Shown here: positions 38,529 through 54,435 of the stretch, one piece after another | Numbering within the stretch: the first letter of the stretch is position 1 | Layout: every line of letters starts with the position of its first letter | Assembly: GCA_016287385.1 (NCBI GenBank) | Contig: JAEEWM010000017.1 | Location: forward strand, 124,001-188,000 | Direction of reading: 5' to 3' | From: Clostridiaceae bacterium | Lineage (GTDB): Bacteria > Bacillota > Clostridia > Oscillospirales > Acutalibacteraceae | Length of the DNA stretch: 64,000 bases | Position numbers and translations under genes: made by a program | The notes under the pieces: model-generated | Seen by the model: the letters and a program-made list of their open reading frames with translations, nothing else | What the model was told of the DNA's origin: nothing | Databases searched by the model: none

Positions 38529-40744
38529 TTGGTCACCTTATACTTTGAAAGATACTCCTGAAGCTCATAATAAGCGGGTTTGAGCCTTTCATGCCATGTG
38601 GGAGTATTCCACGATTTGTAATTATACTTTCCGCTCAGTTTAATGCTTAAATTATCTGTGCTGTTACGATTTCTGAAAGCAAAGCCGAAATCAAAGCTTT
38701 CGTAATCCTGTGCGGATATAACCTGCGCCTGCCAGAAGTCCGACATCTGCTGCTTACTTGACGGATCCATGACATTCAGAAGCTGCCACGGTATTCTTAT
38801 TTCGAGTTTCCCGTTTTTGTAGTAAAAATCGCTTAATGAGCGATAACCGTCGGCTTCCGGATTGCCGTTGCCGAATTGAAGTTTTCCGGTTTCGTACGCT
38901 TTATCGGTTACCACCTCGCCGGTGCCCTTAACAGTTAAATTATAACCGTAGCACAAGCGCATTATATCGAAGTTTCCGCTGTTCTTCTGGTTGGCGTTCA
39001 CTTCCGCCGGAATATCGTTCAGCTTTCTTGAGTTAAGGAAATAATAGTTGAACGCGTCATAATACCTGTCAACAAATATATGCGAATCGTCTTTACCGTT
39101 GATATAGATCAGGAAATCCGCTTCGCTGTCAAATTTCGCGTTGTACTCCGTGCTTTTTGAATTCCCTTGCCCCGAAAGCGTATTGACGGGAATAAGCAGA
39201 GTATCATTTTCAAAATTAAACGTATCGGAATCAAGCATAATGTACAGATATCGCTCGTCACTCTTTACATAAAGGCTGCCCTGCTTTGTATTGACTATCG
39301 GATCCACGGTTTTCCATTCCGAGGTTTCACCGTCAACATAACAAGCCATATCCGACTTGCCGGGGTCAAACGCCATCAGGCCGAAGCATTGCTCGGTTGT
39401 TTGAATATTCGACCAGAAGGGGCGCCTGTCGGCAATATCGAACATAACATTGTTCCATGTTCGTTTGAACCATTCATCCTGCCAGGTAAAAACGATGCCG
39501 CCCGCGTACTTTGAATCCTCAATACACTGGAACATATGAATGAGCATTTGTCCCTGTTCGGTTTCATCCACCATTCCCTGATTATAGCCCATGACGCTTT
39601 TGTGTCCGAGGCCGCGCGATGTGGGTATACCGAATTCCGATACCATAATCGGAATTGTATGCGCAAGCTTTAAGTCTTCAAGATAAGCGAGATATGTGTT
39701 GACCTTGTCGTTTTCATCAATATATTCGAGATAATCCAGCTGATAATTGAGACTGTCGGGATAATAGGGATAAATATGGTATGACGCGAACATTCCGGGT
39801 CCGAAATTACGGAACTTGACATTTTCGGTGTTTACCGTTGCTTTGTCTTCGTCGAAATGCGGCTCGTTCGGATGAGTGAGCGGGTCGGTTGTAATCCAGT
39901 TTGTAAAGGCAAGCGGAACCTGAAATTTGTAATTTTCCGTTTCATGTTTTATAAGTGAATTGCCGACGCGGCAGAGAAACGCCTCAAAGGGCGAAGCCGT
40001 CTGCGTATAGAGATACTCACCGTCGAAATCCTTTTTATTCGGGTTTTGAAGATCTGTATTCAAAACAAAATTCGGATCCCATTCGATACCGATAATCCAA
40101 CCTATAAGCCACTTTGAAACGTCGGCGACGTAGGTGCCCGACGCTTCACCGGGGGAGCTCGGAATCTTTGCTTTGCCGTGGATTACATCCACAAGGTTTT
40201 CGGCATCCGCGGTAAAATCATTAAGAATTTTTTCGTTTTCAACGTAAGCGTCGGATAATCTTTCAATATCCTCTTCGTTGACCCAGATACCCTGAAACAG
40301 ATAAATTTTGTTGGCGGATTTTTGATTGAAATCGTACAGCGCCTGATAAAACTGCGGCGGCATCAAGGTATAAATACGGACACAGTTGCAGTTCATTTCA
40401 CTGATTTTTCCGAACCAGCGGTAATACGATTCATAAGAAATCGTCAAATCACCGGGGAACAACGCGGGCTCGGTCGCACCGATATTAACACCGCGCATAA
40501 ACATCTGTTCCCACTCGCCGTCGGAATAGCGGTAAAAATAATCGCCTGTTGCTTTGAAGCAGTAGCTGACGCCCGTTTGATTGTCAATAAAACTGCTGTA
40601 CGCCGAATTCGACTTTTTTTGGTTGTCTTTTTTCTTTCGGTAAAAGGAGAGCCCGTGAATTCCGAAAATTTCAAGAAAACCCATCTGCGCGAGAAAAAAC
40701 AAAACCAAAAGAGTGCTGACAATTGAAACAACGGTTTTTTTCAC
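38525..40744 (-). CDS. Membrane-anchored extracellular GH-like barrel paralogue B
   Basis: The 739-residue protein starts at GTG, overlapping the stop of the GT2 gene (GTGA). An N-terminal hydrophobic segment (TVVSIVSTLLVLFFLAQMGF) anchors it outside. The barrel shares the pattern of its neighbour: FMRGVNIGATEPALFPGDL, WLIGWIIGIEWDPNF, IPIMVSEFGIPTSRGLGH and GGIVFTWQDEWFKRTWN. Both putative catalytic Glu positions are kept. The C-terminal domain carries NGKLEIRIPWQLLNVMDPS. Paralogous with 36375 over its whole length; role as there. Confidence 0.75.
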   Translation of the reverse strand: MKKTVVSIVSTLLVLFFLAQMGFLEIFGIHGLSFYRKKKDNQKKSNSAYSSFIDNQTGVSYCFKATGDYFYRYSDGEWEQMFMRGVNIGATEPALFPGDLTISYESYYRWFGKISEMNCNCVRIYTLMPPQFYQALYDFNQKSANKIYLFQGIWVNEEDIERLSDAYVENEKILNDFTADAENLVDVIHGKAKIPSSPGEASGTYVADVSKWLIGWIIGIEWDPNFVLNTDLQNPNKKDFDGEYLYTQTASPFEAFLCRVGNSLIKHETENYKFQVPLAFTNWITTDPLTHPNEPHFDEDKATVNTENVKFRNFGPGMFASYHIYPYYPDSLNYQLDYLEYIDENDKVNTYLAYLEDLKLAHTIPIMVSEFGIPTSRGLGHKSVMGYNQGMVDETEQGQMLIHMFQCIEDSKYAGGIVFTWQDEWFKRTWNNVMFDIADRRPFWSNIQTTEQCFGLMAFDPGKSDMACYVDGETSEWKTVDPIVNTKQGSLYVKSDERYLYIMLDSDTFNFENDTLLIPVNTLSGQGNSKSTEYNAKFDSEADFLIYINGKDDSHIFVDRYYDAFNYYFLNSRKLNDIPAEVNANQKNSGNFDIMRLCYGYNLTVKGTGEVVTDKAYETGKLQFGNGNPEADGYRSLSDFYYKNGKLEIRIPWQLLNVMDPSSKQQMSDFWQAQVISAQDYESFDFGFAFRNRNSTDNLSIKLSGKYNYKSWNTPTWHERLKPAYYELQEYLSKYKVTK

Positions 40745-42099
40745 TTCTCCAGTTCCTTTCTTTTGATTTTACCCCATGTTTTACGCAATTTTCTGTACTT
40801 GAGGATTCCTTCAAGACGAAACAGCGAAATAATCTGACGGTATCCGAAATTTTCCAAAATGGCGTAAAGGGACAGCTTTAAGCACTGCTTTGCGGTCATC
40901 ACCGATTTTCTGGTGTACAGTTCAAGGATCAGACTGCCTATCGACAGTATAACGCCGAGCAGTACGGCGAGAAGAAAATAGATAATGAAGAAGAACATAT
41001 TAAGCTCTCCCATAATAAGTGAAAACGGGATAATAAAATACCCGAGCACTTCTACCGCCGCGCCGAACAGTTCAAAAAACCAGTTGTAGGGTATTGCAAG
41101 GCATCCTACCAAACCGTAACGCAGATTGAAAAACAGACTTTTATGCGCAAGCAGCGTATCAAGCAAACCGATTTGCCAGCGTCTTCTCTGACTTCTGATA
41201 TCCTTAAGCGACATGGGTCCCTGAGTCCAGCAAACCGAATCTTCGCAAAAGATGATCTTATACTTTCTTTTGTTTTTCCGCATATATCTGTGTAAGCGAA
41301 CTACAATTTCCATATCTTCGCCTATCGTGTTGGTCTTGTATCCGCCGACTTCAATAACCGCCTGCTTTTTGAAAACACCGAAAGCGCCGGAAACAATAAG
41401 CATTGAATTTGTAGCGCCCCAGCTTACCCTTCCCGAAAGGAAAGAGCGGTAATACTCAACTATCTGGAAGCGCTCAACCATTTTTTCGGGCATGGTAAAA
41501 CCGCTTACGACGCCGTCCTTGATTTTGAAGCCGTTGGCTATACGCACAAGACCGCCGGCAACGATCGTATTGGTGTTCTTCAAAAACTCGATGGCAAGCA
41601 TCAGAAGTGAATCCGGCTCAATACGGGAGTCAGCGTCAAGGCAGGCAAACAGCGGATAGGAAGATATGTTTATTCCCGCGTTAAGCGCGTCGGATTTACC
41701 GCCGTTTTCCTTATCAACATAAATCAGATTGGGGTATTTAACATTGAAATATACGCCCCGCACTTCCTTTGTGGGAATTGATGTTTTTACGGCTGATTCG
41801 ATTTTATAAAGCTGAAACGCTTCTACGATCAAGTCGTGAGTTTTATCGGTTGAACCGTCATTTACAACACAGATTTCAAATTTCGGATAATTGAGTTTCA
41901 TCAGCGATTTAATATTGGAAACAATATTTTCCTGCTCATTATACGCGGGGATAAGCAAAGAAATAGGAAGCAGATTATCGCTGTCGGCATATCGGCTGTA
42001 ATCATTTGAATTACGGAACTTATCATCGCGACGCACCGAAAAAAACGAGATGAACATTTGTATAACGTATATAATACTCAAAATGATCGTAAACGACAT
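40741..42099 (-). CDS. Processive family 2 glycosyltransferase (polysaccharide synthase)
   Basis: The 452-residue membrane enzyme shows the motifs of cellulose/poly-GlcNAc-type synthases: SLLIPAYNEQENIV, VVNDGSTD, ACLDADSRI (DxD), TIGEDMEIVVRL and the processivity motif QRRRW. One N-terminal and about three C-terminal transmembrane segments flank the catalytic domain. No PilZ domain is present, so c-di-GMP must act through another protein or through gene expression. The ATG at 42099 has no ribosome binding site; the frame is open further upstream and AAAGGATTGA occurs at 42161-42170, so the true N-terminus may lie earlier at a non-ATG codon. Polymer unknown. Confidence 0.88.
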   Translation of the reverse strand: MSFTIILSIIYVIQMFISFFSVRRDDKFRNSNDYSRYADSDNLLPISLLIPAYNEQENIVSNIKSLMKLNYPKFEICVVNDGSTDKTHDLIVEAFQLYKIESAVKTSIPTKEVRGVYFNVKYPNLIYVDKENGGKSDALNAGINISSYPLFACLDADSRIEPDSLLMLAIEFLKNTNTIVAGGLVRIANGFKIKDGVVSGFTMPEKMVERFQIVEYYRSFLSGRVSWGATNSMLIVSGAFGVFKKQAVIEVGGYKTNTIGEDMEIVVRLHRYMRKNKRKYKIIFCEDSVCWTQGPMSLKDIRSQRRRWQIGLLDTLLAHKSLFFNLRYGLVGCLAIPYNWFFELFGAAVEVLGYFIIPFSLIMGELNMFFFIIYFLLAVLLGVILSIGSLILELYTRKSVMTAKQCLKLSLYAILENFGYRQIISLFRLEGILKYRKLRKTWGKIKRKELEK

Positions 42100-42189: not shown

Positions 42190-43284
42190 TTATTTTTTCT
42201 TTTTTTCATTCAGATCCACCGAACGGTAAAGCGCATACTTTGCCGCGTCGGAAGCATATTTATCATAACCGCTCAGTATTTCCTCTATTTCGGAAATGTT
42301 GACATTCATATCAATCAGCGCGGTGGCGGCGGTTTGCCGCACCCACCATTCGTTGTCCTTCATTGCCTCCTTGATACCGTTTACGGCACCGGGTGTTCCG
42401 AGTCTTTCAAGTCCCCTTATCGCCGCGGAACGCACAATCCAGACCTTATCCTTTGCCGCGGTCAGAAGCAAATGCTCGTATTCCGGCTTTGCAAAATAAC
42501 CGATGGCTTTAACGCAGGCGACCCGCATCTCCTTGTTTTTGCTTGTTGTTCCGTCAATATACATCGGTTCAAATTCGGAAATCTTATAATGCGCTATCGC
42601 CTTTATAACAACCGTTTTCATATATTCGCCGCATTTTTCAAAAACCGCTTTGGCGAGCTCGTAACGGCTTAAACTGAAATCGTCAAAAAGCTCGTTTACG
42701 ATTCGGCAGGAATAATTCCTGTCATTCTCGATTCTTACGATAAACTCCGCGACGCCCTCGGTATAACCGAGCCGTGCCAAGGCCATCGCGGCATGGTACG
42801 CGGTCTCTCTGTTTTTGGATTTTGAGAGCTCATAAATATCTTTCAGGTAATCATATGCGTCGAAATCGGCAAGACGGCGGCAGGCGTATCCTATTTTGTA
42901 CTTATCCTGCTGCCTGACAATTTCACCGCACAGACCGACGGGATTAAGCGCCTCATAAATTTTATCGATGATTTCCGACTTGTTTTCAAGTGTTTTTTCA
43001 TCACCGAATTCATCCCAGTAGCAGAGCTGAGAATTTATGATTTCAAACATTTTAATGTCGTCGCCCATCAGCTTTTTAAGCTCCTGAGTCTCTTTTTCAC
43101 GGCATTTTTCCGTAGGCCCGTAAAGAATGCCCTCAATCATACAATTACATTTTTTGGCGGCGTCAAGATACAGATTGGAGTCATCCTCCTGCCGTTTTGC
43201 AAGCAGTGCGAGCCATAAATATTCAAATCCCAGCAAAAAGAGGCACAAAATAATACAGAGTATCGCAACAAGTTCGGCTTGCAT
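42190..43284 (-). CDS. Membrane-tethered HEAT-repeat protein
   Basis: The start at 43284 follows AAAAGGAGG and gives 364 residues. A single N-terminal transmembrane helix (about 3-25) is followed by a long cytoplasmic helical region. From about residue 140 there are repeated HEAT/PBS-lyase-type units, for example AYHAAMALARLGYTEGVAEF, VACVKAIGYFAKPEYEHLL, WIVRSAAIRGLERLGTPGAV and WWVRQTAATALIDMN. HEAT solenoids are protein-binding scaffolds. Between the synthase and a large membrane protein, it probably assembles the polysaccharide machine at the inner face of the membrane. Confidence 0.85.
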   Translation of the reverse strand: MQAELVAILCIILCLFLLGFEYLWLALLAKRQEDDSNLYLDAAKKCNCMIEGILYGPTEKCREKETQELKKLMGDDIKMFEIINSQLCYWDEFGDEKTLENKSEIIDKIYEALNPVGLCGEIVRQQDKYKIGYACRRLADFDAYDYLKDIYELSKSKNRETAYHAAMALARLGYTEGVAEFIVRIENDRNYSCRIVNELFDDFSLSRYELAKAVFEKCGEYMKTVVIKAIAHYKISEFEPMYIDGTTSKNKEMRVACVKAIGYFAKPEYEHLLLTAAKDKVWIVRSAAIRGLERLGTPGAVNGIKEAMKDNEWWVRQTAATALIDMNVNISEIEEILSGYDKYASDAAKYALYRSVDLNEKKKK

Positions 43285-43308
43285 TATTTTTACCTCCTTT
43301 TTCAAAAA

Positions 43309-46300
43309 TCACTTTATCGCACTGAAGTATTTTTTTATAAGAGTATAACTCTCTTTTTCGCGCATTTTGTAATTAACCGTCTCCCAGGTGCTCCATTTGA
43401 ATGTTTTATAAGACGGCTCCTGCTTTGTTTCCGGGAACAAATAAAGCTGGTCCTTCGTCGCTTTATCGGCAATCATAACAGAAACAATAGCGCCGTTGGT
43501 GCTGACGGTTTTTGTCTGTTTTCCGATCGGTCCTTCGTTATTGATAACGATTTTATTGGAGGGATCGGTAACGTTAAGCCACGTCCACGGAATCCTTATA
43601 TAAATTGTAGAACCGGTTTGATAAAACTGATTATCGCCGGAAGAAAATCCTCCGTATTTCAGTTTTGAAACAAGGTTATAATCACCCGAATAGTTTTCCT
43701 TTGTCACATACTGCCCTTTTCCGCGATCATATCCGGCGATAACATAAATCCCCGCCGACTGCTTACCGTCAAACCGAATAGTGTATTCCATTCCGGAAAG
43801 CGACGTCGGAGTATAGTCCTTTGAATAGTAGTATTCACCGTCGTTACGCTGATAGGTGTCAATACCGATAAACAAACGCTCCGTCTGATAATCAATATCA
43901 TAAAGCAACTGTGCCGTAATGTAGAAATATCCCTCGTTTGCCGAAAGGGAGAGCATACGCACTCTGTCATCATCGGTCATATTGATTCCGACATTTTCGG
44001 GCATTTTCGGGTCGAGCGCAACAAATCCCGTTGTTTGGGCCGGGTCCGCCACGTTTTGCCACATGCAGTTGTTTTCAATAGGCGTCGTAAACGGATACAT
44101 TTCGCTTGAAACCGCCGACCAGTCATCGTTGAGATCGGACGCCACCGCACACAACGCGCCGACTTTATTGGCTGTCCTCAAAACAGATACGATTTGCTGA
44201 CCCTGATACTTTTCAGTCATAGGCGCCAGACTCTCCATACCGCAGGTGGAGGAAAAACCTATTCCATCAATCATCAGTTTACTGTCGGCGCCCTTGCTTA
44301 GAGCGGTAAAAGCCGATTCATAGGCGTTGGCCGCATTGGGGAATTTATCCTTATTTGAACTGATTACATTTTTAACACTATCAAAAGAAACGGATAAGAA
44401 TGAATAGTGTTCAAGACAACTGTCGTCCTTAATCACATCGTCGAGCGCAAAGGCGTTTTCCGTATCAAAGCCGGTACCCTTTACACTTCCGGCATCAACG
44501 CCGATACCGATGGGAACGCTTTTTTTGTATGTGGTTTTTGAATAATTCTGAATCCTGTCGTAAACGAACGCACAAAGTCCCGTAGTGCCTTTTCCTTCGG
44601 CATATTTGCCGTCGTAGGTAAGCTTGCCGCCGGTATTGCCGTCAAATGTGATCGCCGCGACATAATCGGAAACATCGATAAAGTATTTGGCTTCGCTTTT
44701 TTCGGCTTCGCCGAAATCGATTGTTCCGTTCCCGTGCAAAGCATCCAGCACGGATTCGATTTTTTTCAGCCAGTCGGCTTCGGTAGGCGCCTTCGGCGCC
44801 GCTATATTCTGGATGATATAAAGCGGTGTGGCATCGCTGCCCGAATTATGAGAAAAGACGGCGCGGTAGAATTCCGGCGGCAGGATATCCTTTGCGTAAA
44901 TGCAATCGGCTCCCATATTAACCGCTTCCTCAACAAGCTGCTCAAAGTAGACGTAGTTTCTTGAAAGCGTGTTTTTGCCGGGCTCGGTTCCGTTGATACT
45001 TACCGTATTCATTCTGAGCTTTTTCCACTTGTCGTCGGTTTCGATCTGAAATTCGTTGCCGTTAAGCCTGATATTCCGTTTTTCCGAATCTGAACTCGCC
45101 TTACCGCCCTTGCCTTTCAGCGTCGCTTTAGGTTCGATTTCCGACATTATTTTCCCCATAAAAGGAGTATAAAAGCTCCAGAAAAAGTTGGATGTATCGC
45201 CTTGCCGGTCAAAAGAAATCGATTTGTAAACCGATTCGGCAAACAAATAGCGGTTGAATTTTTTACGCCCCACAACATCGTTGAAGTCACCGGCAAAATA
45301 ATATACGGGCGACTTCCCCTCGGTCTTTTTTCTGGTTGCGGCGCAAAAGACGGGGCTTTTGAGAACGCCTTTAAGCTTTTCCATACCCGTCGCGTTTACA
45401 TCAAACTCAAAATTCGCAAGTACCTCGCAGTCGCCCATGGGTTCAACGATTTCAAACCAGTTGTAAAAGTTTGTTTTACCGCAATGCTTGAATTCTTTTT
45501 TGAATTCGGGAGCGATGTAAACCTTTAAAAGGTTCTTGGATTCAAAATCCGTTTTTTGCTCTAACACGATAATTTTTTCGGCTGAGACAAGAAGAACTCC
45601 GGGGCCGGAAAACTGCCACTCAACGCCTTCCTGCTGTTCGTACATCGGAGGCGCCCAATCGGGAACATCGGTGAAATCCTGAAGATCAACTATATATCTT
45701 CCCGCCCAACCGCTCGGCTTTACGCCGCACATTGAAGAAAGCTGCGAATAAACCGAATCGTCGGATCCGGAGTTGAATATTCCAAGCTCCGCTATGACAG
45801 TGGCGTTGCTTTCGTACGCATACGATATAACAGACATATCGTCAACCGTGATTCCGGGATTTCGTGCGGTTGAATCGTTAAAATAGCCGTAAGTATCGTC
45901 TACTGCGCCGTAGACATCCGATACGTACATTAAATCCGGCGTGAAATCCAGTTCCGATAAATACCGTTCCGAATCTATCTGCCCCTCCGAATTCAACATA
46001 GGGCCGAAATAATCGCTTTCGGCTTTATAATACTTGCCGTCCGGCTTAACGTATTTATGATGTTCGAGCAGCCAGTAAAACCCCTGATGCTTCCGGTAAA
46101 TGGCATTTGCTTCAATATCGTTGTCATCGCTGGCAATCAGAACGGTCTTATCGAGAACGGCAATATTTATCGCCTTTTTCGGCTTTATCTGCCAACCGAG
46201 AAGCAAAACAATCATTACGGTGAATATTATTCCCGGGATTAAAAAATACCACGGTACTTTTTTGTGCTTTTTAATCTTCTTAAGATCATTATTCGTCTTT

Positions 46301-46383
46301 TCATCCCGTTTTGCAGGGTCAAAACGAATCTCCGCGTCTGCCGCCGTATTCTCGGAATTGCCGGCTTTTATATCGTTATTCAT
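43309..46383 (-). CDS. Large membrane-anchored protein with degenerate GH-like barrel
   Basis: The start at 46383 overlaps the upstream stop (ATGA); 1024 residues. A cytoplasmic tail precedes one transmembrane helix (about 47-67, VPWYFLIPGIIFTVMIVLLL). The first extracellular part (about 70-420) looks like a Rossmann/class I amidotransferase-like domain (SDVYGAVDDTYGYF, VIAELGIFNSGSDD). The second (about 430-1024) is a distant relative of the proteins at 36375 and 38525, sharing the C-terminal motif IYIRIPWTWLNVTDPSNK. The expected catalytic Glu sites are not evident (AAITFDGNTGG; GIGFSSTCGME), so it may be a non-catalytic carbohydrate-handling scaffold. Function unknown. Confidence 0.75.
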   Translation of the reverse strand: MNNDIKAGNSENTAADAEIRFDPAKRDEKTNNDLKKIKKHKKVPWYFLIPGIIFTVMIVLLLGWQIKPKKAINIAVLDKTVLIASDDNDIEANAIYRKHQGFYWLLEHHKYVKPDGKYYKAESDYFGPMLNSEGQIDSERYLSELDFTPDLMYVSDVYGAVDDTYGYFNDSTARNPGITVDDMSVISYAYESNATVIAELGIFNSGSDDSVYSQLSSMCGVKPSGWAGRYIVDLQDFTDVPDWAPPMYEQQEGVEWQFSGPGVLLVSAEKIIVLEQKTDFESKNLLKVYIAPEFKKEFKHCGKTNFYNWFEIVEPMGDCEVLANFEFDVNATGMEKLKGVLKSPVFCAATRKKTEGKSPVYYFAGDFNDVVGRKKFNRYLFAESVYKSISFDRQGDTSNFFWSFYTPFMGKIMSEIEPKATLKGKGGKASSDSEKRNIRLNGNEFQIETDDKWKKLRMNTVSINGTEPGKNTLSRNYVYFEQLVEEAVNMGADCIYAKDILPPEFYRAVFSHNSGSDATPLYIIQNIAAPKAPTEADWLKKIESVLDALHGNGTIDFGEAEKSEAKYFIDVSDYVAAITFDGNTGGKLTYDGKYAEGKGTTGLCAFVYDRIQNYSKTTYKKSVPIGIGVDAGSVKGTGFDTENAFALDDVIKDDSCLEHYSFLSVSFDSVKNVISSNKDKFPNAANAYESAFTALSKGADSKLMIDGIGFSSTCGMESLAPMTEKYQGQQIVSVLRTANKVGALCAVASDLNDDWSAVSSEMYPFTTPIENNCMWQNVADPAQTTGFVALDPKMPENVGINMTDDDRVRMLSLSANEGYFYITAQLLYDIDYQTERLFIGIDTYQRNDGEYYYSKDYTPTSLSGMEYTIRFDGKQSAGIYVIAGYDRGKGQYVTKENYSGDYNLVSKLKYGGFSSGDNQFYQTGSTIYIRIPWTWLNVTDPSNKIVINNEGPIGKQTKTVSTNGAIVSVMIADKATKDQLYLFPETKQEPSYKTFKWSTWETVNYKMREKESYTLIKKYFSAIK

Positions 46384-48614
46384 TGATCTTTCTCCTCGAC
46401 ATGTTTCCTGACCTTGTCCTCGCACTCGTGCAAAGCGGCTATAATTTCAGGATCAAACATTGTTCCGCTTTGCTGATCCACATAAAACATTACCGCATCA
46501 AACGCCCACGCTTCCTTGTACGACCGCTTCGAGGTCAACGCGTCAATACAGTCGGCAACCGATACGACGCGGGCAAAACGGTTAATATCCTCACCCTTGA
46601 TTTTGTTGTTGCCTGTTCCGTCGTATCTCTCGTGATGATCCTTCGCTATCAGAGCCGCCTGTTTAAGGAAATCACTGTCGAAGACAGACAGTATGGTATA
46701 TCCGAAATCGGTATGCATATTGATGATTTTTCTCTCGCTCTCGCTAAGAAGCCCCGCCTTGGTCGTGATCTCGAACGGAATGGCGATTTTGCCGATATCG
46801 TGAAGCATGGAGGCCTTTGAAACGGTATCGCATACATCTTCGGGATAACCGAGGGTTTCAAGTAAGGTTTTTGTGATATATTCAACGGAAGCAAGGTGGT
46901 CCGGATTGTTGCCGGCGCTTATCTCCGTTTTTTGCGCGAGGTTTGTGAATATATCTTTTTCGAGATTGTCGTAATCGTCAGTATCGGAAAACCTCGCAAG
47001 CACTAAAATCGCGCAACTGTATAATGTGGTGATGACACTTATAAAGAAAGAATCAAGACCGTCGGTTATATTTTCAAAATGAAGTATCGAATACAAATCG
47101 TCCTGTTTGAAAAATACAAGATCAAAATAGGTTTCACAAAACAGACAGTTATTCTGCTCGGTATTGCATCTTGTTTCAATAACGCGGTAATTTACACTGC
47201 CTATTGTATCTTTACTGTATATTTCATTATACTTTTCGCCGTCTTTTTTTGCAATCACAAATGAGAAATCTTCGTCCTCAAATTGTTTTGACATATGTTC
47301 GCACAGATCGCAGAGTCCGTCAGCCAGCGCTTTGTACACTTCGGTTTCAGAATGCATCTGCGCGATGCCGCGCATTAAATCCGCCACTTTATTTACGCAG
47401 ATTCTGTAATGCTCTATTTTCTCCTGAACATCGTCAGACTGATAGGAAAATTCCTTGACTATCAGGATAAAGAGCATAAAGCAAAGAAATACGAAACCGC
47501 CTATCAGCTTGCAGAACGCAAAACCGCTTCTGAATTTCAGAATCTGGAACATCGCGGTCCCGAGCACGTTTGACATCAGGAGAAGAACAAGCATTGAGAA
47601 TATGCTTCTCGCGTATTGAATACGCCTGTTGAACATTTTGTGATTTTCGATAAGCAACAATACAAGGGTGACAATACAAAACGCGGAAGAAACAAAATGC
47701 AAAGCGCGAAGCAGCACCGGCTGATTAACAAAGCAGGTGGCTACGATAAGAAACGTTGACAGAAGCAGCAGTACATTTATTCTTTTATTGTTTACAGACA
47801 GAACATTTATGGCAACAACCGAAAAAAGAATAACAAGCAGGTTTTCCACAGAAACGGAAACATTGTAAAACAGAGGAATATTGATAAAATACGTATACCG
47901 CGTTAAAGCAACAATAAGTACCGTTACGGCATAAAACAAAGATAAAACGGCGGTCAGGAAAAATTTGGTGCTGCGGTGCTTTATATACCTTAAATATATA
48001 AATACGGCAAAAAAAGCAACGGATATTACAATAAGTGCGAAACAAAACACCATCCCTCCGCCGAGAACAAATCCGGGATGGCTCGTGTTTTTGCCTATTG
48101 AAACCGTAACATCCGCCGAAAAAGGAAGACGTACGGAAATCGCCACACTCACCTCAGACACGGATGCCGGTATAGTGACGGCGTTATACGCGTTGCCTAC
48201 ATATTGAAAGTCGGAATAATGATTGTCATATACGGTTTCACCGTTTATCACAACTTTGACCGGAGCGTAATCGGTATTGATAACGAGCGTGCGTTCCTTA
48301 TCGCTTGCGGAAATATTCGAGCGCATATGAAGGTACTTGCCGATTTTTTCCTTCGGTATCGGGCTTAACGGTGTTGCCGAATTCAAATTGCCGTGAAAAT
48401 CCTCCTCCGCCTTGTTGGAATAAATATAATCCCATGTGTTAAGCACCTTTGCGGATGAAAACCTGTTGTTTGAATAGGTAAACAAAAAATTAAGCGTAAG
48501 AATGACAACAAGCATAATCAGCGGGATTTCGATTAACGTGAGCAGCTCGGCGTTCTTGCCGAGCTTTTTATTCCAATCTTTAATTTTCTCAAAAACGGAA
48601 TGGAGTTTTTTCAT
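46380..48614 (-). CDS. Membrane HD-GYP-like phosphodiesterase
   Basis: The 744-residue protein has an N-terminal helix, an extracellular beta domain (about 45-180), seven transmembrane segments (about 185-390, a 7TMR-like sensor), a GAF-like region and a C-terminal HD domain (about 560-744). Metal-binding residues are kept: LHDIGKIAIP, KDHHERYDGTG and SVADCIDALTS. The GYP signature is replaced (DGTGNNKIKG). HD-GYP proteins cleave c-di-GMP; loss of GYP leaves activity uncertain. It opens the cluster of overlapping polysaccharide genes and may link an external signal to c-di-GMP level. Confidence 0.85.
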   Translation of the reverse strand: MKKLHSVFEKIKDWNKKLGKNAELLTLIEIPLIMLVVILTLNFLFTYSNNRFSSAKVLNTWDYIYSNKAEEDFHGNLNSATPLSPIPKEKIGKYLHMRSNISASDKERTLVINTDYAPVKVVINGETVYDNHYSDFQYVGNAYNAVTIPASVSEVSVAISVRLPFSADVTVSIGKNTSHPGFVLGGGMVFCFALIVISVAFFAVFIYLRYIKHRSTKFFLTAVLSLFYAVTVLIVALTRYTYFINIPLFYNVSVSVENLLVILFSVVAINVLSVNNKRINVLLLLSTFLIVATCFVNQPVLLRALHFVSSAFCIVTLVLLLIENHKMFNRRIQYARSIFSMLVLLLMSNVLGTAMFQILKFRSGFAFCKLIGGFVFLCFMLFILIVKEFSYQSDDVQEKIEHYRICVNKVADLMRGIAQMHSETEVYKALADGLCDLCEHMSKQFEDEDFSFVIAKKDGEKYNEIYSKDTIGSVNYRVIETRCNTEQNNCLFCETYFDLVFFKQDDLYSILHFENITDGLDSFFISVITTLYSCAILVLARFSDTDDYDNLEKDIFTNLAQKTEISAGNNPDHLASVEYITKTLLETLGYPEDVCDTVSKASMLHDIGKIAIPFEITTKAGLLSESERKIINMHTDFGYTILSVFDSDFLKQAALIAKDHHERYDGTGNNKIKGEDINRFARVVSVADCIDALTSKRSYKEAWAFDAVMFYVDQQSGTMFDPEIIAALHECEDKVRKHVEEKDQ

Positions 48615-48628
48615 TTAACTAACGCACC

Positions 48629-48829
48629 TTAAAAATGGGAATACTTATCTAACAGTTTCTTAACGTCATTAACGCTGGTAACGGTGGAATTCATCGATCC
48701 GGCATTTTTTTCTTTGTACTGTTTCAGCACTTTATCGAGAATATCGTATGCTTTTATCACTTTCGCGAGGATATCCTTTAATTCCCCGTTTTCACGCTCT
48801 AATTCTTCATAAGTCGGTTTGTTCTCCAC
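48629..48829 (-). CDS. Small coiled-coil protein in the exopolysaccharide operon
   Basis: A 66-residue protein starting at GTG with AGGAGTATATT upstream. The N-terminal 45 residues are a charged heptad-rich helix (YEELERENGELKDILAKVIK), ending KKLLDKYSHF. No family recognised. Spacing of 13-14 bases to genes on both sides supports translation in the operon; it may be an adaptor binding one of the membrane components. Confidence 0.65.
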   Translation of the reverse strand: MENKPTYEELERENGELKDILAKVIKAYDILDKVLKQYKEKNAGSMNSTVTSVNDVKKLLDKYSHF

Positions 48830-48842
48830 AATATACTCCTTA

Positions 48843-49487
48843 CTAATTCGACGACGTCATCTTCATTATGACTATCTGTCCGTCGTTATCGCGAACGGTA
48901 AGCACCGTCTTGCCCAATATCTCGCTCTCGGTAGAATCGGTGTAAAACGTTGTATACGCCCTGTATGTGTTGGAACCTTGTATATCAAGTGAAACGTCGT
49001 AAAAAATCTCCGTTTCGTAAGGCGGTTCCCACATCTCAAAGCACTTTTTCGACGCATTGTACAGGTCGGATTTGGTGATATCCGTTTTAACCTCGCCGAA
49101 ATCTTTTTTGATTCTCGCCCTCAGACCGTCCTCCGATACCTTGCGCAGTTTATTGCCGGAAGTCGGAATATCAATCAGATTATCATAAAACAGATGGCAA
49201 AAAGAGTATTGCACCAAAGCGTTAACCGCTATATCGTCCGGCGAATTAAACTTCTTCTGCGCCAAAAGAAACCGAAGCTCATAGCTTCTCATCGCGAGGT
49301 CGTCCCCTTTGATATAATCCGGTATGGTCTGCTCCTTTGAATCGGTCTCTCCGGACTGCTCGGAACTGCCGCCGACGACCGGGCTTTTGTTACCGCAGCC
49401 GCAAAAACAGCAAATCAGTACGGCGGTAAGGATACTTAAAGCAACTATCCTGATGTATTTTTTTGATCTTACACTGTACAAATACAC
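48843..49487 (-). CDS. Lipoprotein of unknown function
   Basis: A 214-residue protein starting at GTG after AAAGGGGG. A hydrophobic segment ending in VLICCFCGCGNKS looks like a lipobox. A Ser/Gln/Thr-rich linker and a compact alpha/beta domain (about 60-214) follow, ending in VLTVRDNDGQIVIMKM. It resembles the many small lipoproteins with NTF2-like or DUF domains but I cannot name it. It is first after a terminator and is probably the first gene of the exopolysaccharide transcript. Confidence 0.7.
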   Translation of the reverse strand: MYLYSVRSKKYIRIVALSILTAVLICCFCGCGNKSPVVGGSSEQSGETDSKEQTIPDYIKGDDLAMRSYELRFLLAQKKFNSPDDIAVNALVQYSFCHLFYDNLIDIPTSGNKLRKVSEDGLRARIKKDFGEVKTDITKSDLYNASKKCFEMWEPPYETEIFYDVSLDIQGSNTYRAYTTFYTDSTESEILGKTVLTVRDNDGQIVIMKMTSSN

Positions 49488-49523
49488 CGTCTATCCCCCT
49501 TTGTTACTCTGTTTTTCAAACGC

Positions 49524-49553
49524 AAAAGACTGCACAGATAAAAATGTGCAGTC
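49524..49553 (-). terminator. Intrinsic terminator between the coiled-coil gene and the lipoprotein gene
   Basis: Perfect 9-bp stem GACTGCACA/TGTGCAGTC with an eight-base loop and TTTT on the minus strand. It ends the riboswitch-controlled transcript or lets part of it read into the exopolysaccharide genes. The region 49488-49611 holds no gene and no clear promoter. Confidence 0.7.
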
Positions 49554-49611
49554 GACTTACTAAACATATCGTTTCAATTATTCTATCAAACCAGCGGGAC
49601 GCCGACATTAT

Positions 49612-50226
49612 CTAATCGTTCTGTGTCAGAGCTTCTGCCAAAAGTTTACTTCTTTCTTCAAATGATAATCTGCTTTTCCTGCCGAATCTTGAATAATCGG
49701 AAGCGCGCTCGATAACCTCTTTGGTTATTCTTTTCGGTTTCCCCGCAGAAACCGCGGGTACTGTTTTTAAGACCTCCGCCTTACCGGCAATTTCATCTGC
49801 GCCGGCGGCAGGCACGATATCGGCAACATCCGCGCCGTCCTTATTCTCATCCGCGGTTCCGGGATTCGCCACGGCACGAACGTTTACTATTTCTTCACGG
49901 ATAAGCTCGTGGTCTTTTAAGACGTCGCCGATTTCACTTATAATTCCGATAAGCCGGCGGTCTAAGCCCTTAAGCATCTGCTTTGTGACATCGGCGGAAT
50001 GCTGATTTGATTCGGGCGCGTCCCTATAAATCTCATCAATTTTCTGAAACGCCGCCAGGCTTTCGGAAATATCTCTTTTCAGTTCAACATTTTCGGCGTT
50101 GAGCTCCGCCACCCGCTTTTCCAATTCGGAAATTCTTACGGCAGTATTCTCAACCTCGTTTTGTAACCATGTGTTTTCTTTTTCGGAAGCATCCGGTTTC
50201 ACTTGAATTCCGTCAACAGTTCCCAT
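49612..50226 (-). CDS. Coiled-coil protein of unknown function
   Basis: A 204-residue soluble protein with GGGGTGA before the ATG. Residues about 15-60 form a strong coiled coil (ISELEKRVAELNAENVELKR); 85-115 is a second helical stretch; an Ala/Asp/Gly-rich linker (about 118-160) precedes a basic tail (KPKRITKEVIERASDYSRFG, RKSRLS). No signal peptide. It is about 75 bases after the riboswitch-controlled secreted protein and probably on the same transcript. The basic C-terminus suggests binding to an acidic partner or nucleic acid. Function unknown. Confidence 0.65.
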   Translation of the reverse strand: MGTVDGIQVKPDASEKENTWLQNEVENTAVRISELEKRVAELNAENVELKRDISESLAAFQKIDEIYRDAPESNQHSADVTKQMLKGLDRRLIGIISEIGDVLKDHELIREEIVNVRAVANPGTADENKDGADVADIVPAAGADEIAGKAEVLKTVPAVSAGKPKRITKEVIERASDYSRFGRKSRLSFEERSKLLAEALTQND

Positions 50227-50300
50227 TTGCTTTTCACCCCGCCGAAAACCGTATTTTCAAAGCCTTCCATACGGATATCCACCGGAGCGTTTTAACCGTA

Positions 50301-51419
50301 TCAGTAATTCCAGGTATAATCGTTTACGCTTGTTAAAAGCTCGCTTTCATACACACCCTCGCCGCTGTTGTTGGAAACAAGGATATCGGCGCTTTCCGCA
50401 AACTGATAGTTAATGTAAGCTTTGCAGGTAACGGTTGTGCCGAGCGGAAGGTTGACCGAAAGGCTCTCGACCGGTGTGCTCAACACATTGTCGATTCCGG
50501 TCTGCTTGTTATAATCGCCTTTTGCAAAGTGGAAACGGTAAGCCATAAAGAAGTTGTTAACATCGGTTTCAAGATGGGAATCCGAAGCGTCGCAATTAAC
50601 GATTATCATTTTGGCTTCGTTATCTATAATGTCAATACCTTTTACGGTATAACGGTCGGGATCAGCCGCCGCTGCCGCTTTAAGCTCTAAAAACTCTTTG
50701 TTGTGTACCGCTTTCATTCTGTAAACAACAGTACCGCAGATTCCGTTGCCGTTTTCATCGTAGATTCCGTTTTCCCAGTTAACCGTGCACATCTGGAAAA
50801 GATATTCCTTGCCGACTTCGATTTCTTTCATTTCGCCGCCGTAATATACGGAACCGTCTTCAAACTTGACCGCCATTTTCCTCGGCGCGTCAATTCTGAT
50901 GGTTGCGGCTTCACCGGTAACAGTGCCGGCAGCTTCACCGGTAGCAGCACCGGCGGCAGCGCCGCTGTTATTCGTGTTTGCCGAAGCAGCCGCCGAAGCG
51001 CTGTCGGAAGTGCCTTTTACAAAGTGGCTGTAATTGCCGTCAATATAAACCTTCATTACGCCGGCTTCGGACGAAACGGTAACCTTTGCTTTTGAACCGT
51101 TTGTGTTCGGCGTATACTTGATTCCCTCACCTTTAAGAACCTCAAATTTCTTAGTAGCGTTTGCCAAAGACGGATCGGCGTTCTTTGCCTGATCAATGAT
51201 TTCATCGTCTGAGCGGGCGTCATCGGCAGGAACCCAAACAAGGGCGCCGGTTGCCTGCTTTACCCAGAAAATGACAGATCCGGTCAGGTCATACTCGCTC
51301 GCGCCCTGCATATGCTCGGAATACTCAATATCCGAATCAGCGTAGGTAACTACACTCATACCGGCCAGCAATGCAACCACCGCGGCAAGAGCAAGCACAA
51401 TCGAAACAACTTTTTTCAT
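50301..51419 (-). CDS. Secreted protein with shared matrix-type C-terminal domain, c-di-GMP-controlled
   Basis: The start at 51419 follows AAGGAG; 372 residues. A signal peptide (MKKVVSIVLALAAVVALLAG, cleavage near VTYA) leads to an N-terminal domain (about 29-137) without recognised family, an Ala/Ser/Gly/Thr-rich linker (about 138-172), and a C-terminal domain (173-372) nearly identical over most of its length to that of the divergent protein at 51979. Typical stretches are RKMAV, EDGSVYYGGEMKE, NGICGTVVYRMK and SVNDYTWNY. The leader carries a c-di-GMP-I riboswitch, so it is made according to c-di-GMP level. Probably an extracellular matrix or polysaccharide-binding protein. Confidence 0.85.
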   Translation of the reverse strand: MKKVVSIVLALAAVVALLAGMSVVTYADSDIEYSEHMQGASEYDLTGSVIFWVKQATGALVWVPADDARSDDEIIDQAKNADPSLANATKKFEVLKGEGIKYTPNTNGSKAKVTVSSEAGVMKVYIDGNYSHFVKGTSDSASAAASANTNNSGAAAGAATGEAAGTVTGEAATIRIDAPRKMAVKFEDGSVYYGGEMKEIEVGKEYLFQMCTVNWENGIYDENGNGICGTVVYRMKAVHNKEFLELKAAAAADPDRYTVKGIDIIDNEAKMIIVNCDASDSHLETDVNNFFMAYRFHFAKGDYNKQTGIDNVLSTPVESLSVNLPLGTTVTCKAYINYQFAESADILVSNNSGEGVYESELLTSVNDYTWNY

Positions 51420-51450
51420 AACAATAACTCCTTTTTTCATCGCGGTGGAC

Positions 51451-51565
51451 AAAAAAAACAGCCCGCCGCAAAATCAATATGATTTGCAGCCAGACTGTCA
51501 TGGTAAATACTTTAGACTCTTGAGCTTTCCGTCCCTGCGTTTCCACAGGTTTGGCTTTTAACTTT
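51451..51565 (-). promoter_or_regulatory. c-di-GMP-I (GEMM-I) riboswitch with overlapping terminator, minus strand
   Basis: The minus-strand leader reads AAACCTGTGGAAACGCAGGG, then ACGGAAAGC, GTCTAAAG and a distal stem before AGTCTGGCTGC. This is the c-di-GMP-I aptamer pattern: GAAA-capped stem, A-C-G-x-AAAGC junction and final GGxTGC. The usual ACGCAAAGC is ACGGAAAGC here. A terminator follows: CAGTCTGGCTGC (51486-51497) can pair with GCGGCGGGCTG (51459-51469), then eight T residues (51451-51458). The 5' terminator arm is part of the aptamer, so ligand binding should prevent termination and switch the gene on (inference). Confidence 0.88.
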
Positions 51566-51573
51566 ATATTCAC

Positions 51574-51602
51574 ATTATATTCAACCGTATCGCATTTGTC
51601 AA
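51574..51602 (-). promoter_or_regulatory. Consensus promoter of the minus-strand riboswitch transcript
   Basis: On the minus strand, TTGACA (51597-51602), 17-base spacer and TATAAT (51574-51579): a perfect sigma-A promoter. Transcription should start about nine bases before the aptamer. Confidence 0.85.
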
Positions 51603-51792
51603 GTGTTTTTTTAAAGAATTTTTTCGCGCATTAAAAAACGGAGCGCTCCCGCCGTCACAAGAGCGGCTTTGCGCCCTTTTACAGGGAAAGACCGGCGTCC
51701 TTCTCACACCTGCCGACACACATATATAGATATAATAAACCGGCGCAACCGAAAAAAATCGCATAAAAATGCGTTTTTATTCAAAAAAATTG
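51603..51792. other. Spacer between the two divergent riboswitch promoters
   Basis: No gene is visible. A small hairpin CGCAT-AAAA-ATGCG with T-runs on both sides (51760-51778) could separate the two transcription units or act as a weak bidirectional terminator. Confidence 0.5.
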
Positions 51793-51821
51793 TTGACAAA
51801 TCCGCATTACCGATATATAAT
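51793..51821 (+). promoter_or_regulatory. Consensus promoter of the plus-strand riboswitch transcript
   Basis: TTGACA (51793-51798), 17-base spacer and TATAAT (51816-51821). As strong as the divergent promoter, which suggests that control rests on the riboswitches rather than on initiation. Confidence 0.85.
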
Positions 51822-51825
51822 AATA

Positions 51826-51947
51826 GCGGATAAAAAAGGCAAAACTGTCGAAAGGCAGTGACGCAAAGCAAAGAGCCTACGGTGTTTTCACACTATGGTA
51901 GTCTGGTTGCATCCGCGTGTATAGGTCTAATGCACGTGGGATTTTTT
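51826..51947 (+). promoter_or_regulatory. c-di-GMP-I (GEMM-I) riboswitch with terminator, plus strand
   Basis: The leader contains GGCAAAACTGTCGAAAGGCA, GTGACGCAAAGC, GCCTACGGTG and TATGGTAGTCTGGTTGC, the c-di-GMP-I aptamer consensus. The closing stem pairs GCGGAT (51826-51831) with ATCCGC (51911-51916). The same ATCCGCGTG (51911-51919) can instead pair with CACGTGGGAT (51933-51942), followed by TTTTTT, an intrinsic terminator. Ligand-bound aptamer and terminator are mutually exclusive, so c-di-GMP should turn the downstream gene on (inference from base pairing). Confidence 0.93.
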
Positions 51948-51978
51948 GTGTCCTGGACACAAGAAAGGATATGCGATT

Positions 51979-53640
51979 ATGAAAAAAATTCTTTCAGCAC
52001 TGATTGCTGTGGCCCTGCTGGTTACGGTCTTTTGCCTGCCTGCCGGCGCTTATACGGGTCACGCAAACACAGGCGATACTATCGCCTTCAAAGGTGCAAC
52101 GGCTTCCGATGCCTTCGGCGGTCTGCTTGACTGGTCGGGTATCGTGTTCGGAAACGTAAACAACGTTATCGATGTTGAAGGCACTCTTGCCGTCGGCGGT
52201 AATTTCGTTTCCAACACCGGTTTCTCAGCCAACAGCGGCGCCTACGGCCAGTCACCGGCATCCACCGATGATGTTGCGCTTCTTGTAAACGGCAATATAA
52301 ATATCAGCGGCTACGGTAACGTTTGGGGTCAGACGGTCGTCGGCAACGCGGACGGCAACACCTATCGCCTTTCCAACGTAACCGCTTCTGAAACAACCAA
52401 CGCGAAGTACACCGTCGCGAACACAGCGCAGTATTTTGCAAATGCTTCGAGCACTGCTTACGCCGTCAGGTCTTCCATCGCATCAATGCCGGTTAACGGT
52501 GTTTGCGAATCGGCATACGGCACATATACGTTCGTCGGCGATCCCGCCGCCAATGTGTTGGTTTATAACGTAAACGATTCGAATTTCAATTCGTATCTCT
52601 TTGATTTCACTATTGCTGACGGTCAGACCGTTATCGTTAATCTTACGACAGCCGACGCCATCAATTTGAAATACGGCGCTTGCAGAATAAACGGCAGCAT
52701 GGATCCGGATTATCTCAGGGATTACAACCGCAATATCATAATAAACGTTCCCAATTCCACCGAGATAACGATGACCTCATGCGAACTGTACGGCATCCTT
52801 TTGGCGCCTGACGCCAACTTGAACGGCAAAGGTTCCAATGTATGCGGAACTTCAATCCTGAACGGTCTTACGGGATCGAACGGCTTTGAGCTTCACGTCG
52901 GCTACAACAACAGCTTTGCTCCGGCTATTGCCTCTGCGGCTTCCGCTTCCGGCAGTCCTGCTTCCGGCGGCGCCGCTTCCGGCAGTCCTGCGTCCGGTGG
53001 TGCTGCGTCTTCTTCAACCGCTTCCGGTGAAACGGTCGGCATAAGAATTGACGTTCCCCGCAAAATGGCTGTTGCTTTTGAGGATGGCACCGTTTACTAC
53101 GGCGGCGAGATGAAAGAGGTCGAAGTCGGCAAAGAGTATCCTTTCCAGATGTGCGCGGTAAACTGGGATAACGGCATTTACGATGAAAACGGCAACGGAA
53201 TCTGCGGTACTGTTGTTTACAGAATGAAAGTGGTACACAACAAAGAGTTTTTAGAGCTCAAAGCGGCAGCGGCGGCTGATCCCGACCGTTATACCGTAAA
53301 GGGTATCGACATCATAGATAACGAAGCCAAAATCATCATCGTTAATTGCGACGCTTCGGATTCCCACCTTGAAACAGACGTAAACAACTTCTTTGTAGCG
53401 TACCGTTTCCACTTTGCGAAAGGCGACTATAACAAGAAGACCGGCATTGAGAACGTCATCAACACCCCTCTTGAGAGTCTTTCGGTTAACCTCCCCGCCG
53501 GTTCCACGATCACCTGCAACGCTTATAACGGCGATGTAATGATCGATACCGAGAACGTGTTTATCACCGTTAACTCCGGCGAAGGCATTTACGATGACGT
53601 ATACCTCACCAGCGTAAACGACTACACCTGGAATCACTGA
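51979..53640 (+). CDS. Secreted choice-of-anchor-A-type protein with shared matrix domain, c-di-GMP-controlled
   Basis: The start at 51979 follows AAGAAAGGA; 553 residues. After the signal peptide (MKKILSALIAVALLVTVFCL, cleavage near AGA) comes a beta-rich domain (about 30-325) of the choice-of-anchor A type: NVIDVEGTLAVGGNF, LLVNGNINISGYGNVWG, and YGILLAPDANLNGKG near its end. A Ser/Ala/Gly/Pro linker with SPASGGAASG repeats (about 328-352) leads to the C-terminal domain (about 355-553) shared with the divergent protein at 50301. The linker probably spans the cell envelope or matrix. Controlled by its own c-di-GMP-I riboswitch. No sortase motif or other anchor is visible. Confidence 0.88.
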   Translation: MKKILSALIAVALLVTVFCLPAGAYTGHANTGDTIAFKGATASDAFGGLLDWSGIVFGNVNNVIDVEGTLAVGGNFVSNTGFSANSGAYGQSPASTDDVALLVNGNINISGYGNVWGQTVVGNADGNTYRLSNVTASETTNAKYTVANTAQYFANASSTAYAVRSSIASMPVNGVCESAYGTYTFVGDPAANVLVYNVNDSNFNSYLFDFTIADGQTVIVNLTTADAINLKYGACRINGSMDPDYLRDYNRNIIINVPNSTEITMTSCELYGILLAPDANLNGKGSNVCGTSILNGLTGSNGFELHVGYNNSFAPAIASAASASGSPASGGAASGSPASGGAASSSTASGETVGIRIDVPRKMAVAFEDGTVYYGGEMKEVEVGKEYPFQMCAVNWDNGIYDENGNGICGTVVYRMKVVHNKEFLELKAAAAADPDRYTVKGIDIIDNEAKIIIVNCDASDSHLETDVNNFFVAYRFHFAKGDYNKKTGIENVINTPLESLSVNLPAGSTITCNAYNGDVMIDTENVFITVNSGEGIYDDVYLTSVNDYTWNH

Positions 53641-53663
53641 TTCCAAAAGTAAAAAAAATTTGG

Positions 53664-53698
53664 CGGCGTCGTACCTGATCGGTACGGCGCCGTTTTTT
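53664..53698 (+). terminator. Intrinsic terminator after the choice-of-anchor-A gene
   Basis: Stem CGGCGTCGTACC with GGTACGGCGCCG (one G-T pair, five-base loop) followed by six T residues. Confidence 0.85.
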
Positions 53699-53754
53699 GT
53701 GTTTACCAAATAATCAATACTTCTATCCCCTGTTACAGCCGGAATTTACCCGGA

Positions 53755-54435
53755 TTATTTTTTTGTTAATTCAAAGCTTTTTGCCAACAGCGCCATAACG
53801 CCGTCGTCCGTTAAAGCGTCGTCAAGTGAAACCGAAATCCAGTGTTTGCGGTTCATGTGGTAGGCGGGATATATACCTGTCTGCCGCGTAAGCTGTTCAA
53901 TCATATCCGGCTCGGATTTCAGGTTGATGATGTCGACAGTGCTATTGTCACCGCCCTTTGTTATAAGCCGGCGCCTGACGTTCATAATAAGCGCAAACCA
54001 CTTAAGGTTATCAGCATGGCGGAAGACCCCGCAGCTTTGGTATTTACTCTGCTTCCAGGGAAAGTCCGGCGCAACGCCAAACGCTTCCGATATCCGCTCG
54101 GCAATACGGTTTGCCTGATCCGACGCGAATAACACGTCCTTACAACACCCGCCCGCGATGCTTTCGAGTAATGCCTCATAAGCCAGCCTGACCGAGTTGA
54201 CATAACCGCCGCTGAAGGAGTCGATACGAAGCGGTCTGTATTCTTCGTCGTTCATTTTGTCTACGACGGTGCAGTCAAACGCGCCGTTATCAAAAATAAT
54301 AACGGTTGCGGAAAAATCTCCGTTCATAAAATCGGTTTCGTATCGATAGGCGCCGCCCGTCTTTATAAAGCCGAAATCAAGCATTTTTCGGGGCTCAAAC
54401 CGCCTTCCGGCGAACACTTTTTCCTCTATGGTCAT
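53755..54435 (-). CDS. MmcQ/YjbR-family protein with extra N-terminal domain
   Basis: Start placed at the ATG at 54435 after AGAGGA, giving 226 residues. The C-terminal half (about 110-226) matches the YjbR/MmcQ fold: KYQSCGVFRHADNLKWFALI, IINLKSEPDMIEQL, and the typical HMNRKHWISVSLDDALTDD. The N-terminal half (about 1-105) is a separate alpha/beta module. YjbR proteins have a DNA-binding-like fold and no settled function. It follows the polyferredoxin gene closely. Confidence 0.8.
   Translation of the reverse strand: MTIEEKVFAGRRFEPRKMLDFGFIKTGGAYRYETDFMNGDFSATVIIFDNGAFDCTVVDKMNDEEYRPLRIDSFSGGYVNSVRLAYEALLESIAGGCCKDVLFASDQANRIAERISEAFGVAPDFPWKQSKYQSCGVFRHADNLKWFALIMNVRRRLITKGGDNSTVDIINLKSEPDMIEQLTRQTGIYPAYHMNRKHWISVSLDDALTDDGVMALLAKSFELTKK

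Follow-up and report, generated by a model that had tools for sequence, protein, structure and literature searches.

We analyzed a 64,000-nucleotide (nt) stretch of contig JAEEWM010000017.1 from a Clostridiaceae bacterium (assembly GCA_016287385.1; hereafter the window), in which two leaders with class I cyclic di-guanosine monophosphate (c-di-GMP-I) riboswitch aptamers face outward from one intergenic region and precede the genes for two secreted proteins, P0001 on the minus strand and P0002 on the plus strand. We propose, with a probability of about 0.62, that the locus encodes a c-di-GMP-induced matrix, in which a polysaccharide is accompanied by modular secreted proteins that dock through a shared C-terminal domain, and that the two riboswitches, by sensing this bacterial signal for settling, turn its production on. 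The proposal starts from what is present in the DNA, namely promoters, aptamers, terminators that overlap the aptamers, a colinear operon headed by the P0001 gene and the recurrence of this linkage in other genomes. Since the same domain, operon and riboswitch class keep occurring together, a c-di-GMP-induced matrix with proteins that recognise its product is, in our view, the best explanation.

Two outward-facing riboswitch leaders

The original prediction placed a perfect TTGACA-17-TATAAT promoter, a c-di-GMP-I aptamer and an intrinsic terminator in each leader, firing in opposite directions about 190 bases apart, and all of these elements were recovered. The promoters (51574-51602 on the minus strand, 51793-51821 on the plus strand) each match the consensus at 12 of 12 positions, have a 17-nt spacer and are the only 12/12 sigma-70-type promoters that a promoter scan found in 50000-54000, with 190 nt between the two -35 boxes. 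The aptamers, separated by 262 nt, both match the Rfam model RF01051 over its full length (model positions 1-87), with 75.6 bits for the plus aptamer (51828-51914) and 68.3 bits for the minus aptamer (51482-51565) against a gathering score of 35.

Both aptamers have the ligand-contacting G and the CTGC/TTGC end, mapped by eye; the ligand-contacting positions we take to be Vc2 G20 and Vc2 C92, following the Vc2 structure literature. A G at the Vc2 G20 position presumably discriminates c-di-GMP from a cyclic GMP-AMP-type ligand, and since both window aptamers have it, we do not favour a variant ligand of the latter type. Across 58 homologous aptamers from the window and the related loci described below, a simple pattern found the discriminating G in 55 and an A in one, with two not resolved. 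The A belongs to L112:21274-21360, where it may alter ligand preference. The minus aptamer of the window has a C-G pair in place of the consensus G-C, a compensated change that we assume to lie beside the ligand site. Seven of the 58 aptamers have this swap, namely that of the window minus leader, L130:658, L132:2810 and two each in L135 and L095. Five of them precede P0001-type genes, and both L095 ones precede a P0002-type gene.

The plus terminator (51912-51940) has bases in common with the closing stem of the aptamer (GCGGAT/ATCCGC), which reaches slightly past the aptamer itself. In the minus leader, the 3' strand of the aptamer itself (from GACAGTCTGGCTGC) serves as the 5' arm of the terminator (about 51499-51457), which leads into eight T; this terminator is not among the hairpins of our general scan, which accepts short loops and an unbroken stem. 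When folding of the growing RNA was followed in the plus leader, the closing stem kept the aptamer together up to the point where the terminator's 3' arm had been made, whereupon the terminator captured the 3' side of that stem. Stepwise folding of the minus leader likewise had the aptamer 3' strand yield to the terminator as the RNA lengthened. Because a ligand-held aptamer and a full terminator are mutually exclusive in both leaders, ligand should raise read-through. Both leaders thus look like transcriptional ON switches, with a ligand response and an in vivo direction that we infer from their sequences.

A terminator-like hairpin of any kind was found by script at 55 of the 58 aptamers, and at 50 the 5' arm begins inside the aptamer model while the 3' arm lies after it, a count that comes from homologous and hence not independent leaders. 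Dinucleotide shuffling (30 rounds) gave a mean of 4.5 such overlaps and a maximum of 8. A second control tells against reading the whole count as evidence of switching: when downstream parts were swapped between loci, the overlap persisted (mean 39, maximum 44), so much of it reflects the likeness of homologous leaders.

The opposite logic, in which both leaders would be OFF switches and c-di-GMP would lower expression, has a precedent in C. difficile, whose class I switches are uniformly OFF in the account drawn on here (McKee et al., PMC6200980), where one class I-preceded gene is nonetheless induced, through its promoter. Against it stand the terminator 5' arms, which in both window leaders are built from aptamer or closing-stem bases. 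An arm that overlaps the aptamer means that ligand binding opposes termination, as described for the Bc2 RNA of Bacillus thuringiensis, an ON antiterminator c-di-GMP-I switch before the collagen adhesin gene cap (PMC4933901, in the part used here). We therefore regard the OFF reading as very improbable.

Secreted proteins with a common C-terminal domain

That the two leaders precede secreted proteins with different N-terminal domains was borne out. Both proteins begin with a signal-peptide-like stretch as judged by eye, and translation likely begins with ATG at 51419 and at 51979, each a short way in from the start given in the list of open reading frames (ORFs). P0001 (50301-51419, minus strand, 372 residues) consists of the signal peptide, an N-terminal domain that reaches no Pfam or NCBIfam cut-off, and the shared domain at about residues 170-372. 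P0002 (51979-53640, plus strand, 553 residues) carries a choice-of-anchor A/pAdhesive_15 domain (TIGR04215, 86.7 bits against a cut-off of 29; PF20597, 103.8 against 23.8), a linker rich in Ala, Ser and Gly, and the shared domain. It looks monocistronic; a hairpin scan placed a strong terminator-like hairpin at 53662-53694 on the plus strand. The C-terminal 200 residues had been described as nearly identical, which overstates a likeness that is nevertheless high (160 of 203 residues, 79%).

We searched for this domain among 149 related genomes, with the C-terminal 200 residues of P0001 as query. It was present in five of the six genomes that encode the 1038-residue protein of the minus-strand operon (see below) and, once one spurious match had been dropped (G077, E 4e-4, 25% identity, in an ORF that by eye looks like a transcription regulator), nowhere else among the 149. 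The operon protein has an RF01051 match 2.6-5.2 kilobases (kb) upstream on the same strand in all six genomes; the aptamer itself occurs in 37 of the 149 (85 matches in total). Scanning GTDB (one genome per species) with the 1038-residue protein gave 54 loci. All except one come from assemblies of uncultured bacteria (Clostridia, Ruminococcus, Oscillospiraceae, 'bacterium' and the like), the remaining one being Paenibacillus castaneae (L137). Rumen, ileum or abomasum is named in the titles of several of these assemblies, and Candidatus Onthovicinus (Oscillospiraceae) is among the relatives. Two loci (L129 and L138) share an assembly and seem to hold two fragments of a single gene.

With a covariance model of only 8 base pairs, trained on 32 RF01051 matches, 56 aptamers were found, distributed over 37 of the 54 loci. 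Five of the 54 loci match genomes of the 149-genome search, and some of the aptamers in those five genomes had trained the model. A rescan of 13 loci with Rfam confirmed 25 of 26 aptamers, the exception being the weak L095:4286; the other 24 aptamer loci rest on the covariance model, five of them being common to the 149-genome search, with RF01051 there. One confirmed aptamer, L133:3941-4027, has its best match in the sister family c-di-GMP-I-GGC (RF03167) rather than in RF01051.

A profile of the shared domain detected 47 genes in 42 of the 54 loci. Of the 42 testable genes, 36 directly follow an aptamer, at most 600 nt away from the open frame, and the other six do not; a further five are cut by a contig start. 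The domain follows different N-termini. It is joined to choice-of-anchor A domains in six orthologues of P0002 (61-72% identical), to the P0001-type N-domain in three orthologues (53-60% identical) and, in proteins of about 690 residues, to a beta-helix-type partner (Pfam Beta_helix_3; L088 and L110 pass the cut-off and L089 falls short of it), as well as to smaller N-terminal forms.

The mirrored arrangement of the window recurs in L102, which has two aptamers 265 nt apart and diverging genes. Its minus gene combines choice-of-anchor A with the shared domain; its plus gene is longer, beta-helix-like by start and length, has the shared domain and heads the operon. The script detected no aptamer-overlapping terminator in either L102 leader. 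A looser divergent pair (1.2 kb) occurs in L086, so that 3 of 55 loci, window included, have the divergent layout, and a further 14 carry more than one aptamer on the same strand. Tandem aptamers were seen at L135:4942-5158 (two) and L095:3948-4370 (two and a weak third).

Alternatively, the pair could have arisen when a single riboswitch-gene unit was duplicated in inverted orientation, the domain then being common by descent only and the proteins having no joint function. The 79% identity of the C-terminal halves would fit this. So would the pattern at the nucleotide level, where the two shared-domain regions are most alike in a middle tract (24-30 identical positions per 30-nt block) and less so at the 3' end (12-16 of 30), a profile resembling the aftermath of gene conversion. 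The N-terminal halves, on the other hand, show no convincing relation (31% over a 65-residue local alignment). Each N-terminal type also has its own orthologues with upstream aptamers in other genomes, and the two types occur together in L135, as P0002- and P0001-type genes in tandem, each behind aptamers of its own. We consider such a duplication improbable. Nor do we claim concerted evolution of the domain within genomes. Identities in L135 are suggestive of it (84% within the locus; 68% and 80% to the orthologues in the window) and those of the window are mixed (79% within; 68-76% and 72-80% to orthologues); L089, L102, L130 and L132 gave no sign of it.

What the domain does is harder to read. 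No family was matched over cut-off in the shared region, carbohydrate-binding families included, with Pfam and NCBIfam for P0001 and P0002 and with Pfam alone for eight related proteins. Below cut-off, Big_8 matched within the region in L087 (18.4 against 22.9) and a Shadoo match in P0001 (14.8 against 27) extends to its first residues. The AlphaFold model of P0001 is confident over the domain, with blocks of predicted local distance difference test (pLDDT) scores mostly >90. A Foldseek search with this model gave a best E of 0.016 and nothing at E ≤ 0.001; that no solved structure supports carbohydrate binding is a point against docking. Several of the weak matches were starch-active enzymes, which we treat as a lead only. 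Sequence searches of the PDB with P0001, the 1038-residue protein and a 739-residue protein gave nothing useful.

These negative searches, together with a similar aromatic-rich C-terminus that ends many copies, make it plausible, though less likely than not, that the domain serves in secretion, wall retention or self-assembly rather than in polysaccharide docking. Its distribution argues the other way: 42 of the 54 operon loci carry it, and among the 149 relatives every genome that has the domain also has the operon, which fits a partner made by the operon and is no proof of one. Any assembly of P0001 and P0002 with each other, and any binding of a polysaccharide, is putative.

A polysaccharide-type operon behind P0001

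The two genes had been placed next to an exopolysaccharide operon. A polysaccharide-type operon is indeed present, and the P0001 gene heads it, as the first of a colinear run on the minus strand, rather than adjoining it. Behind P0001 come a coiled-coil-like protein of 204 residues (49612-50226; sub-cut-off Pfam matches only), a lipoprotein-like protein of 214 residues (48843-49487), a membrane protein with a C-terminal HD-GYP-like domain (46380-48614), the membrane-anchored protein of 1038 residues (43309-46425), a HEAT-repeat protein (42190-43305), a family 2 glycosyltransferase (GT2) with the QRRRW motif of the processive type (40741-42099) and two glycoside hydrolase (GH)-like proteins (38525-40744 and 36375-38528). 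From the HD gene onward the genes overlap or almost touch, save for a 90-nt gap before the GT2 gene. The interval separating the lipoprotein gene from the HD-GYP-like gene holds a further short ORF (48615-48842, minus strand) of about 67 codons, which starts with GTG and by eye resembles a coiled coil. After a 281-nt gap behind the operon follow a GGDEF protein with an intact motif (35005-36093, minus strand), probably a transcription unit of its own, and then a polysaccharide deacetylase. As far as detected, the order lipoprotein, HD-GYP-like, 1038-residue protein, HEAT, GT2, GH-like, GH-like recurs in the loci from metagenome-assembled genomes; the arrangement in L137 is partial and different from theirs.

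The AlphaFold model of the 1038-residue protein (mean pLDDT 84.5) had 166 Foldseek matches at E ≤ 0.001 (best E 8e-8). Every one of the best 50 of the 166 is a glycoside hydrolase, with beta-glucuronidases, beta-galactosidases and GH157 in the majority; their low TM-scores (about 0.2, query-normalised) and large root-mean-square deviations imply that only part of the fold is matched. Relatives of the first GH-like protein are homologous to those of the second, which itself has a weak GH113 match below cut-off, and to those of the C-terminal part of the 1038-residue protein. The GT2 protein scores far under the NCBIfam equivalog cut-offs for the poly-N-acetylglucosamine (PNAG) synthase PgaC/IcaA (124.9 against 422.3) and the cellulose synthase CelA (51 against 699.1), so 'polysaccharide' here stands for a predicted product. 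No Pel gene (PelD/PelF/PelG) was named in the Pfam and NCBIfam scans of the operon proteins, which included no dedicated Pel model. The HD-GYP-like protein keeps the HD catalytic residues (HDIGK, HHE), and its GYP motif is replaced by GNN in the window copy. The GYP proline is missing in all 52 of the 54 loci where a pattern located the motif.

The linkage of riboswitch and operon could also be a matter of neighbourhood. Riboswitch control would then stop at the genes for P0001, P0002 and the small coiled-coil protein, the operon being transcribed separately and its position reflecting history. A terminator-like hairpin (49553-49528, minus strand) in the 124-nt gap between the coiled-coil and lipoprotein genes would suit this, as would two weaker minus-strand promoter-like sites (50635-50608 in P0001, 10/12 matches; 49174-49147 in the lipoprotein gene, 9/12). 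The T tract of the hairpin is weak, however, and no minus-strand promoter-like site is listed in the gaps 49487-49612 or 48614-48843. In 40 loci the sequence reaches 6.9 kb or more beyond the start of the 1038-residue gene, and 33 of these have an upstream aptamer. In 14 loci no gene of the window was detected between an aptamer and the lipoprotein gene of the operon (L085, L086, L087, L093, L095, L112, L113, L114, L115, L116, L121, L124, L127 and L131). Separate transcription is thus rather unlikely.

Several observations weigh against a c-di-GMP-induced matrix made by the whole locus. The hairpin at 49553-49528, which could separate the operon from the P0001 leader, is the main doubt on riboswitch control of the entire window operon. 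Seven of the 40 loci with sufficient upstream sequence have no aptamer there. Six of them (L094, L098, L099, L101, L110 and L136) possess the operon and a shared-domain gene, and an Rfam scan at gathering scores gave no riboswitch, of this or of any other class; these loci form a natural comparison, in which another regulator may act. The seventh, the Paenibacillus locus L137, has neither an aptamer by the covariance model nor a shared-domain gene by the profile. No shared-domain gene appears in the sequence examined of 12 of the 54 loci, some of which are cut short.

Two more c-di-GMP-I aptamers, each with a terminator that overlaps it by eye, were noted elsewhere in this genome (G000). One (C4:2438-2512) lies upstream of an EAL-domain protein, whose match begins at profile position 23, so that the N-terminal EAL motif may be missing; it is followed by small proteins, secreted or in the membrane, and by a gene whose S24-peptidase match is weak and below cut-off. 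The other (C20:1089-1163) is upstream of several secreted-looking proteins of unknown family and of a protein of >1200 residues.

A proposed matrix under riboswitch control

We envisage that at low c-di-GMP each terminator would form from aptamer or closing-stem bases and stop transcription, and that bound c-di-GMP would hold the aptamer, block the terminator and allow both outward units to be made. The plus unit would yield P0002, and the minus unit P0001 together with at least part of the synthase-type polysaccharide operon behind it, if transcription reads through. The exported proteins would dock on the new polysaccharide, or on its synthesis complex, through the shared domain and display their different N-terminal adhesive domains. 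The cluster also holds signal-type genes, HD-GYP-like and GGDEF. The suggestion of a two-component matrix assembled when c-di-GMP rises survives in part: a c-di-GMP-controlled matrix is the best reading of the comparative data and of the overlap between terminators and aptamers, but a strictly two-component one is not general, since in the sequence examined 37 of the 42 loci have one shared-domain gene and five have two.

Parts of this scheme resemble known systems. Bc2 and cap share with the window the c-di-GMP-I aptamer, the antitermination ON logic and a surface adhesin as the controlled product, but as described there a single switch precedes a single adhesin gene (PMC4933901). The Bc3-5 riboswitches likewise place several complete c-di-GMP-I switches at one locus, in tandem within one 5' untranslated region according to the text consulted (PMC4759541); the window has a divergent pair on two transcripts, and tandem copies are found in L095 and L135. 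The Gram-positive Pel operon pelDEADAFG is a synthase-type exopolysaccharide locus under c-di-GMP, but its control is described as resting on the receptor protein PelD, and the word riboswitch is absent from the main text of that report (PMC7112168). The N-domain of P0002 belongs with the choice-of-anchor A proteins (TIGR04215/PF20597), which include the Jonah family among the cellulose-binding lectins of Acanthamoeba described in PMC6541295; P0002 differs in adding the shared C-terminal domain and in sitting behind a riboswitch. Because these lectins bind cellulose, P0002 could, by analogy, tether cells to plant fibre or to a matrix glycan. The theme of a riboswitch before an adhesin is already known, and what is new is that the P0001 gene heads a polysaccharide-type gene run, that aptamer, shared domain and operon recur together across loci, that the domain is joined to varied N-termini and that the mirrored pair is seen again in L102. 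Judged by titles and opening abstracts among the matches listed, we found no c-di-GMP-riboswitch polysaccharide operon of this kind in the literature.

More tentatively, the shared domain might be a matrix-sorting module of a kind not yet described, recognising what an equally undescribed synthase-type polysaccharide operon makes, with different adhesive N-termini swapped onto it in Oscillospiraceae-type bacteria of gut and rumen; polysaccharide and proteins would then be switched on together by separate c-di-GMP-I riboswitches, with RNA rather than a protein receptor commanding assembly. If the proposed matrix is real, uncultured gut and rumen Clostridia would have a defined c-di-GMP output, consisting of a polysaccharide operon with signal enzymes and a family of proteins united by one domain, and the c-di-GMP riboswitches of this lineage would gain polysaccharide operons as a further kind of output. 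The shared domain could then be used as a search handle for the matrix proteins of uncultured species.

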